Assembly: GCA_017626135.1 (NCBI GenBank)
Contig: JAGAJI010000033.1
Location: forward strand, 1-64,000
DNA from: Clostridia bacterium
GTDB taxonomy: Bacteria > Bacillota > Clostridia > Christensenellales > Borkfalkiaceae
DNA: 64,000 nt
Direction of reading: 5' to 3'
This document shows positions 34,397 to 35,924 of this stretch, one piece after another (position 1 is the stretch's first letter; each line of letters begins with the position of its first letter). Below the pieces are notes generated by a model. It had not been told where the DNA came from, did no database searches, and saw only the letters and a program-made list of their open reading frames with translations. The translations under genes were made by a program, and so were the position numbers.

Positions 34397-34915
34397 TTAC
34401 TCCTTATCATCTTCTTTCCCGACTTCGTTGGCGGCTTGCAATGCGGCGAGCTCCTCGGGGGATAAACGCTTTCTCAAATCGGAAATTGCCTGACGGGCGA
34501 GCTCGTCACAACGGTTGTTGTACTCGTTGTCGGCGTGACCTGCAACTTTATGGAAGGTCACTTCGTGTACGTGCGTGAGCTGATATAATTCTTCCCAAAG
34601 ATCGACGTTCAATACCGCTTTCCCGTCCGCTTTTTTCCAGTTTTTCTTCGCCCAACCGTAAATCCAACCGTTCGCAAAGGCGTTGACGGTGTAGGCGGAA
34701 TCGCTGTAAACCTCTACGATACAGGGATATTTCAAACGTTTCAGTCCCTCGATGACCGCCTGCACTTCCATGCGGTTGTTGGTCGTCTGCTTGTCGGCGC
34801 CGTTATACTCCCGCTTCACGTCACCGTACATCAAAATACCGGCGTAACCGCCCAGCCCGGGGTTTCCCGAACAAGCTCCGTCCGTATATAAAATTACCTT
34901 CTTTTTCTCTGTCAT
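34397..34915 (-). CDS. rnhA: Ribonuclease HI
   Basis: RNase HI cleaves the RNA strand of RNA-DNA hybrids. The 172-residue product has the opening LYTDGACSGNPG with the first catalytic aspartate, the glutamate in TTNNRMEVQAVIEGL, the aspartate in YSDSAYTVNA, and the histidine/aspartate pair in KVAGHADNEYNNRCDELAR. A C-terminal charged tail of about 25 residues extends past the domain. The ATG at 34915 begins the normal family N-terminus. No convincing promoter lies directly upstream; a perfect minus-strand promoter at 35301-35329 could serve. Confidence 0.95.
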   Translation of the reverse strand: MTEKKKVILYTDGACSGNPGLGGYAGILMYGDVKREYNGADKQTTNNRMEVQAVIEGLKRLKYPCIVEVYSDSAYTVNAFANGWIYGWAKKNWKKADGKAVLNVDLWEELYQLTHVHEVTFHKVAGHADNEYNNRCDELARQAISDLRKRLSPEELAALQAANEVGKEDDKE

Positions 34916-34978
34916 ACTTTCTCTTTTCAAAATGTTTTATTTTTTATCAAATTTCCCGCGATATCGCCTTAAAAACAA

Positions 34979-35007
34979 TTGACAAATTTCTTTTTTTGTT
35001 ATATAAT
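34979..35007 (+). promoter_or_regulatory. Consensus promoter of tRNA-Trp
   Basis: TTGACA (34979-34984) and TATAAT (35002-35007) are exactly 17 bases apart, 13 bases before the mature tRNA 5' end. Confidence 0.92.
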
Positions 35008-35020
35008 AGCTCTGTTACTT

Positions 35021-35095
35021 AGGGGAGTGGCTCAACGGTAGAGTAGCGGTCTCCAAAACCGTAGGTTGCGTGTTCGAATCGCGTCTCCCCTGCCA
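35021..35095 (+). tRNA. tRNA-Trp (anticodon CCA)
   Basis: The acceptor stem AGGGGAG (35021-35027) pairs fully with CTCCCCT (35085-35091), followed by discriminator G and an encoded CCA end. The anticodon loop CTCCAAA carries CCA, reading UGG. D and T arms are normal (TTCGAAT loop). It is one of only two transcription units in the window on the plus strand. Part of its 3' end is repeated 117 bases downstream. Confidence 0.97.
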
Positions 35096-35097
35096 AG

Positions 35098-35142
35098 ATA
35101 AGACGTATACACAAACGTTTTTGTGTGTGCGTCTTATTTTTT
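35098..35142 (+). terminator. Terminator of tRNA-Trp
   Basis: ATAAGACG (35098-35105) pairs with CGTCTTAT (35130-35137), with further inner pairing ACACAAA/TTTGTGT, and six or so T follow. Confidence 0.9.
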
Positions 35143-35199
35143 ATAAAACCTCGGTTAGCGTGTGACGCTGACGCTATTCCACTTCGTTTACGCCTCACT

Positions 35200-35212
35200 G
35201 TCTCCCCTGCCA
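35200..35212 (+). repeat. Duplicated tRNA-Trp 3' end
   Basis: GTCTCCCCTGCCA at 35200-35212 exactly repeats the last 13 bases of tRNA-Trp (35083-35095), including the CCA end. No anticodon arm remains upstream, so it is debris rather than a second tRNA. Confidence 0.8.
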
Positions 35213-35241
35213 AACGCTTTGGTTTATCCAAAGCGTTTTTT
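35213..35241 (+). terminator. Second terminator downstream of the tRNA debris
   Basis: AACGCTTTGG pairs with CCAAAGCGTT (loop TTTAT) and is followed by TTTTT. It follows the duplicated tRNA 3' end just as the first terminator follows the real tRNA. Confidence 0.85.
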
Positions 35242-35300
35242 ATAAAACCTCGGCTGCGTGTGACGCTGGCGCTATTTTCCAACAATCTTTCCTGCATTTG

Positions 35301-35429: not shown

Positions 35430-35924
35430 ATGATTCAATGTATTCTCTTTGATCGGGACGGTACGTTGGGCGACCTGTCCGACTTGCGTTTCCCCGAGAC
35501 TTTCCGTCCCTTTGCCGATATCCCGTCCACGTTCGCAAAACTCAAAGCCAAAGGCTACTACGTTGGGATTATCACCAACCAGTCGAGCATCGCACGCGGC
35601 ACAGCCAAAGATTACGACTACGCCGCCGAATTTGCCTCCTATGGTGTCGATACGTGGAAGATATGCCCACATGACCGTGCGGACAACTGTAACTGCCGAA
35701 AACCCAAGAGCGGTTTGCTCCTTGCCGCTGCGGAAGAATTGTGCCTCTCCCCAAGTGAATGTCTCGTCGTAGGCGATCGCCTAAGCGATATTCTCTGCGC
35801 CAAAAACGCAGGGGCGAGCGCGGCGCTCGTTTTGACAGGATACGCCGAAAAGGAAGCTGTTTTAGCCACTTTCCCCGATACGCCGATTCTGAAACGATTC
35901 GACGACATTTTGAATATAGTATAA
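35430..35924 (+). CDS. HAD-superfamily phosphatase, HisB-N/GmhB-like
   Basis: The 164-residue product has the HAD nucleophile motif DRDGT (D8 and D10), the second motif ITNQSSIARG, the lysine in CRKPKSG, and the acidic motif VVGDRLSDI. A zinc-loop pattern with CPHDRADNCNC places it with the histidinol-phosphatase / D-glycero-D-manno-heptose bisphosphatase branch. A similar loop is found in GmhB. No heptose or histidine gene is near, so the substrate is unknown. It is the only protein gene on the plus strand, with its own promoter and a bidirectional terminator shared with mgtC. Confidence 0.88.
   Translation: MIQCILFDRDGTLGDLSDLRFPETFRPFADIPSTFAKLKAKGYYVGIITNQSSIARGTAKDYDYAAEFASYGVDTWKICPHDRADNCNCRKPKSGLLLAAAEELCLSPSECLVVGDRLSDILCAKNAGASAALVLTGYAEKEAVLATFPDTPILKRFDDILNIV

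Follow-up and report, generated by a model that had tools for sequence, protein, structure and literature searches.

tRNA genes are classic landing pads of integrases that carry their own tRNA end, and the integration sites are sorted into sublocation classes (T-loop and 3′-end). Among short palindromic repeats, the REP/BIME sequences and the RAYT (Y1 transposase) systems have been described. The nearest architecture to the one reported here is that of the Escherichia coli tyrT operon repeats, the RtT RNA (rttR) of Rfam entry RF00391, in which the tRNA-Tyr 3′ end (position 58 to CCA) is repeated downstream, with a 178-bp spacing after tyrV. Strain MG1655 gives four RtT matches and has six exact 19-mer tRNA-Tyr tails at tyrT/tyrV, two of them inside the tRNA genes. 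A 10-base inverse of the tail, GGGGAAGGAT, is present in three of the five intervals (200 shuffles each: mean, ~5.5; maximum, 8 to 10), and the other two have an 8-base inverse, a level that shuffles reach.

The window, i.e. the whole 64,000-nucleotide stretch of DNA analysed here, contains an intact tRNA-Trp gene followed by a second copy of its 3′ end. The features of the locus are as follows (tRNA positions are numbered T55, C56, R57, with the tail from 57 to 76):

34979–35007, + strand: sigma-70-like promoter of tRNA-Trp, TTGACA-17-TATAAT, 12/12 to the consensus (consensus scan).
35021–35095, + strand: intact tRNA-Trp(CCA) with encoded CCA (ARAGORN and Rfam RF00005).
35076–35095, + strand: TAIL, tRNA positions 57–76, GAATCGCGTCTCCCCTGCCA, the stretch duplicated in the family.
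35095–35140, + strand: terminator hairpin 1 with T-run (−26.2 kcal/mol; z, −8.5).
35149–35163, + strand: left flank of copy 1, CCTCGGTTAGCGTGT, like the left side of the tRNA-Trp-type units of relatives (ACCTACGGTTGCGTGTGACGC in L091).
35164–35191, + strand: copy 1 of the putative hairpin element, in a shortened, decayed form, GACGCTGACGCTATTCCACTTCGTTTAC (alignment to the units of genomes G021, G007, G002, and G067).
35192–35213, + strand: displaced copy of the tRNA-Trp 3′ end, of which the last 14 bases (35200–35213) are exact and the T-loop side is diverged.
35213–35241, + strand: terminator hairpin 2 with T-run (−15.1 kcal/mol; z, −7.4).
35249–35276, + strand: second left flank and putative truncated element copy 2, ending at GCGCTATT.

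An earlier note on this DNA had described the recurrence of the tRNA-Trp 3′ end with correct coordinates; the repeat comprises 14 bases, not 13, with GTCTCCCCTGCCAA at 35083–35096 repeated exactly at 35200–35213, 117 bp downstream. The 13-mer has two matches in the window at ≤1 mismatch, as compared with 0.05 on average and at most 1 in 100 shuffles. Its further observations, that each copy is followed by a different strong hairpin and then by the same tail of about 40 bases, also held: the two terminators are unlike each other and both strong with T-runs (neither being reported by a strict terminator scan of the window), and the matching tails are located at 35137–35178 and 35236–35276. Of the tail parts, TTTTTTATAAAACCTCGG is identical in both (2 of 100 shuffles reach two matches at ≤3 mismatches), and the 21-base part GCGTGTGACGCTGRCGCTATT has one mismatch (shuffle mean, 0.00). 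From the shuffle means of the 13-mer and the 21-base tail part, chance is a poor explanation of the doubled tRNA-Trp end. The two copies are 104 bases apart, with no integrase gene between them. The neighbouring genes are those of an RNase H (34397–34930, minus strand) and a HAD-type hydrolase (35430–35924, plus strand); an RNase HI-like sequence, recognised by eye, also lies upstream of tRNA-Trp in genome G001.

Because the tails keep a GCGT-GTG-ACGC mini-hairpin, the note had suggested that they may form a repeat family in their own right. A dispersed family does exist and is the main finding of this analysis, with a different unit. The string GCGT-GTG-ACGC is found in both window tails; in relatives, it straddles the joint between the end of a T-stem half-copy and the first bases of the element, and what is conserved there is a longer hairpin, GACGC...GCGTC. 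The family's unit is therefore not the mini-hairpin. The intact element in relatives (uncultured gut Clostridia) is most often 53 nt long, this being the commonest length (42 of the 94 clear-stem copies among 181 copies), and reads GACGC, hairpin, CGCTATTCCGTCGCTNCGCTCCTTAC. The usual 53-nt layout consists of a GACG/CGTC stem with a 6-nt bulge, a CGATTG/CAATCG stem, and a variable apical stem, followed by GCTNCGCTCCTTAC. In the 41 of 185 copies (35 distinct) that were picked for a covariation test solely by GAC at −53, the other 144 copies lying outside the test, 484 of 490 stem cells are paired (98.8%), and none of 500 shuffles reached this paired fraction or the covariation score. Seven of the 14 pairs are changed on both sides, which one of the 500 shuffles equalled, and sliding the stem partners abolished the covariation signal. 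These results indicate that the stem is maintained as a stem.

The pattern (T)GACGC, variable hairpin, and an end near CGCTATTCCGTCGCTNCGCTCCTTAC was found in 62 copies in 30 of 101 genomes of the family (≤3 mismatches), with no match for the reversed control. With a covariance model of the element (R1), 35 of 200 order genomes gave matches at an E-value of 0.001, with up to 16 copies per genome, and a scan of species genomes gave at least 120 stretches matching the element pattern. Among the 80 matches listed are MAGs named Clostridia, Clostridiales, Christensenellaceae, Oscillospiraceae, and Firmicutes, one Corallococcus, and members of Candidatus Borkfalkia, Coproplasma, Limihabitans, Ornithoclostridium, and Christensenella sp. 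UBA1259. Among nine comparable cores, too few to bear on homogenisation within genomes, similarity is 0.56 within a genome and 0.54 between genomes. A longer, autonomous version of the element was not noticed among the loci read. An origin from phages or plasmids was rejected, since the exact 20-base core pattern had no match in a viral contig collection and one 92-nt unit had no blastn match to phages and plasmids at an E-value of 0.01.

At tRNA-Trp itself, some relatives have several tails with terminators between them: three each in G002 (spaced by 152 and 177 bp), G067 (163–164 bp), and G033 (the middle one diverged). Exact tRNA-Trp 13-mers ≤200 bp apart occur in at least 20 of 151 family genomes, as counted by eye among the matches listed, and their presence varies. 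In the window's own genome, the motif TGACGCTNNCGCTATTCC has one further exact occurrence, beside tRNA-Ser(TGA) on contig C46. The search for the tail beside other tRNAs and the comparison with relatives, both suggested in the earlier note, have thus shown that the tail occurs elsewhere and that the structure is not identical in all relatives. On contig C46 (L349, 1498–1900), an intact tRNA-Ser(TGA) is accompanied by a partial antisense copy of its 5′ half, beyond which lies the best-preserved element copy of this genome. Model R1 fails to reach the element copy of the window, and the family membership of the window copy therefore rests on intermediate relatives, of which G000, G021, and G007 resemble steps of decay with the last 13 tail bases remaining exact.

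The siting of the element was examined in 223 copies from all loci, most of which were fetched via the element or the tRNA tail, so that the conservation of the tail is subject to ascertainment. The right flank matches a tRNA at ≥15 of 20 bases in 128 copies (random control, 10 of 150, inflated because the loci contain tRNA genes), and in 108 of these it begins exactly 20 nt before the tRNA 3′ end, that is, at R57 in the middle of the T-loop (GTTC|RA). The rest comprise six copies that begin one base earlier, six located elsewhere in the sense orientation, and eight antisense copies, six of which are in the anticodon loop of tRNA-Ser(TGA), again after TTTC. The 108 position-57 copies carry 28 best-match isoacceptor labels, and 71 of them (22 isoacceptors) have an intact cognate tRNA within 600 bp upstream, 84 of the 108 having 600 nt of upstream sequence to inspect. 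In a set sampled by the element and not by the tRNA, 29 of 62 copies are located directly before a tRNA 3′ tail (≥15/20), as compared with 2 of 3000 random 20-mers; four further copies match a tail one base off (read by eye), and the cognate gene is within 600 bp upstream in 23 of the 62. The presence of the element at T-loop position 57 in many tRNAs is thus well supported, and with 95 of the 223 copies being devoid of a tRNA match at ≥15/20, the T-loop is a favoured rather than the sole site.

The usual order at tRNA genes is tRNA, terminator, element, tRNA 3′ end, and terminator. In tRNAs, the element lies between C56 and R57, in place of T55, and is followed by the stretch from R57 to the CCA end, GTTC|RA taking the form GT-element-C|RA. 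In the well-assembled genome G242, a tail copy is found within 400 bp downstream of 11 of 48 tRNA genes and upstream of none of the 48. Not all of these 11 are accompanied by the element; two Leu units with CCAAGCGGAGCAA before the tail lack it, as read by eye. In the window's genome, a tail copy is present downstream of 2 of 22 tRNAs and upstream of 1 of 22, tRNA-Trp itself being under the threshold. Among the 94 clear-stem copies (of 181), a purine follows TTAC in 93 and a T precedes GAC in 82, and copies outside tRNAs share the TTC|R junction. Genome G347 has 21 unoccupied GAGATTCTTCGACTACGCTCAGAATGACA-like sites (≤3 mismatches; five exact; reversed control, none), the occupied form of which is GAGATGCT, element, CGACTACGCTCAGAATGACA, with the same TTC|G junction in occupied and unoccupied sites. 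The element was found in 14 of the 15 stretches of G347 that were read (L441–L455), about 11 of them with these same flanks. Because it lies here inside a longer dispersed repeat (GAGATGCT...CGACTACGCTCAGAATGACA), the element can spread outside tRNAs, too. The idea of insertion exclusively into hairpin loops, which had arisen from the tRNA-Ser anticodon case, was dropped, as the TTC of the GAGATTCTTCGACTACGCTCAG repeat is located in a stem by eye.

Judged from sequence comparison, the explanation that we favour, and regard as fairly probable, is that a REP-like hairpin element inserts at TTC|R with a preference for T-loops and is kept where a duplication restores the tRNA 3′ end, the window copy being a decayed scar of such an event. 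We infer that the element moves, with TTC|R as its probable insertion site. An insertion into an essential tRNA would persist only if one complete tRNA remained, owing to the event itself or to a tandem duplication linked to it; the unit of tRNA 3′ end and terminator would thereby be doubled, and further tandem amplification would become possible. The covarying hairpin may be needed for movement or for single-strand recognition, as in other palindromic repeats. On this reading, the event at the tRNA-Trp of the window would be an old one: the element there is shortened, the tail copy has diverged in part, and terminator 2 is followed by another element that is truncated.

When the trailer of the tRNA is compared with that of the tail copy, identity is ≥80% in 50 of 115 units, 60–80% in 22, and <60% in 43; the unit of the window is outside this set because its tail is too different, and its terminators differ by inspection. 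Tandem duplication explains the 50 alike trailers, but plain tandem duplication explains neither the 43 unlike ones nor the differing terminators of the window, and trailers less than 60% alike need divergence or import of the terminator. Other inserts are found between the tails at the same tRNAs, namely decayed tRNA in G075, G166, G017, and G053, and other sequence in G051 and G135, which indicates that tail duplication also occurs without the element. Five species (L286, L287, L024, L023, and L002) have decayed tRNA-Trp arrays with CCACCA in the place of the anticodon loop, and a further type of unit thus seems to be present in these decayed bodies. At tRNA-Trp in G053 (L284, 1185–6420) and G063 (L285) lies an insert of 5,214 bp that carries Phage_integrase and Resolvase genes; it is base-for-base identical in these two genera, which points to a very recent transfer.

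The analysis found neither a transposase nor a recombinase for the element. A Y1 transposase of the IS200/RAYT type was tried as its partner and rejected for the absence of linkage and for weak co-occurrence: Y1 genes are present in 15 of 30 element-positive and 24 of 71 other genomes (p = 0.18) and absent from the window's genome, and one of 30 Y1 loci is near the element (~1.5 kb).

The doubled end in the window could alternatively derive from tandem duplication of the whole tRNA-Trp gene, with decay of the body and survival of the 3′ end and terminator, which resembles the tandem tRNA array remnant suggested in the earlier note. Sister species do have such arrays, in G075 (three extra units, ~97 bp), G017, G023, G166, and G053 (117–118 bp units), in which remnants of the D- and anticodon-arms are recognisable, and in G021 an element-type unit is followed by a decayed tRNA body. 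In the window, however, no tRNA body is seen, the longest sense match to the tRNA reaching 6 nt in the interval and 7 nt beyond the second copy, and the interval can be aligned with element-type units from G021, G007, G002, and G067 rather than with a decayed array; this origin is thus unlikely, and the suggestion of an array remnant is not supported for the window. The note had also offered insertion at the tRNA 3′ end as an attachment site. Its choice of position was right, since the T-loop boundary 56|57 is the site concerned, whereas the insert is a small hairpin element, 104 bases being far too short for an integrative element. In the corresponding scenario, a tyrosine-integrase element would have entered at the tRNA-Trp 3′ end, restored the gene, displaced the tail, and later been deleted. 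The tRNA-Trp site of relatives indeed harbours the 5,214-bp integrase insert (G053 and G063) or an integrase gene (G001), each with a displaced tail. Nevertheless, the 104-bp interval of the window contains no gene, and neither an integrase insert nor its remains were found between the tails. Element-type units at other tRNAs begin exactly at 57 in the 108 copies with 28 isoacceptor labels. In the G063 insert, by contrast, the block of identity begins at G53, and its exchange point seems, in our own reading of one A/G difference in G053, to lie beyond 59. The 40-base sequence shared by the window tails is likewise not expected from a deleted foreign insert, and we hold such a scar to be improbable.

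A functional RNA, either a tRNA-like minihelix or an RtT-like regulatory RNA that would be released from tRNA read-through and use TAIL–antiTAIL pairing, would account for the covariation of the hairpin, and would also suit the second, inverted copy of the tRNA tail that many relatives have on the left of the element, with which acceptor/T-like helices can form. The inverted-arm score to the cognate tail is ≥7 in 53% of 118 units, as compared with 23% with swapped tails. At the 59 cells where the tail copy differs from the tRNA, however, the arm is Watson–Crick complementary to the tRNA in 37 and to the copy in 8 (within the arm, 20 versus 2; cells that come from tandem units depend on one another), showing that the arm follows the tRNA and is not coevolving with the copy, and speaking against a functional minihelix with coevolving arms. 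Further counting against a functional RNA, the CCA end is more variable than most of the acceptor strand, and the copies in tRNA-Ser(TGA) lie in antisense orientation. In the window, moreover, an inverted arm is absent (longest match, 5 nt), and shuffled sequences fold as well as the 70-nt interval does (z, −0.6). A functional RNA is, from these sequence features, very improbable as the explanation. The inverted arms rather look like by-products of the making of the unit, for which fold-back copying at the terminator may be offered as a guess.

The favoured hairpin element can be placed between the systems mentioned at the outset. Tandem copies of the tRNA 3′ end, from the T-loop to CCA, downstream of a tRNA are shared with the RtT repeats, which differ in being restricted to one tRNA species and in having a longer unit and a different sense sequence. 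RF00391 had no match in the window at the gathering threshold, nor in L001, L082, L183, L223, L084, and L008 up to an E-value of 1. In MG1655, an antisense 42-nt stretch of an RtT-type repeat between tyrT and tyrV (L299, 1462–1503) matches R1 with 21.7 bits (E = 1.7e-4 over 2.5 kb); that this match after tyrT ties the RtT repeats to the element family is only a lead. It is conceivable, as a tentative and wider proposal, that a ~53-nt mobile hairpin homes to the T-loop TTC|R of many or any tRNAs (occasionally to the antisense tRNA-Ser anticodon loop) in this group of Clostridia and escapes gene loss by doubling the stretch of 3′ end and terminator; the tyrT/RtT repeats of E. coli would then have arisen as another outcome of a process of this kind. 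If true, this would offer an origin, open to test, for RtT and other repeats of tRNA ends, would account for some of the partial tRNA genes that genome annotation reports, and would suggest that these bacteria have an enzyme acting on single strands or palindromes by cutting them. The titles and abstract openings covered by a literature search, which reached subscription papers thinly so that a publication may exist, contained nothing on tRNA-end repeats or T-loop-sited palindromes. In size and palindromy, REP/RAYT is the nearest system: like REP/BIME, the element of relatives is a short, bulged, imperfect palindrome that occurs in several to many copies and shows compensatory stem changes, the window copy being decayed. 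The present element differs in having no linked Y1 transposase and, unlike REP, in having about half of its copies in T-loops at base precision. With tRNA-targeting integrative elements of the tyrosine-integrase type, it shares the tRNA region and the displaced 3′ end downstream; unlike them, its unit is tens of bases long, gene-free, and built on one common core at many isoacceptors. A gene-free hairpin at the same T-loop base of more than 20 different tRNAs, leaving a countable scar, would therefore be a different route.
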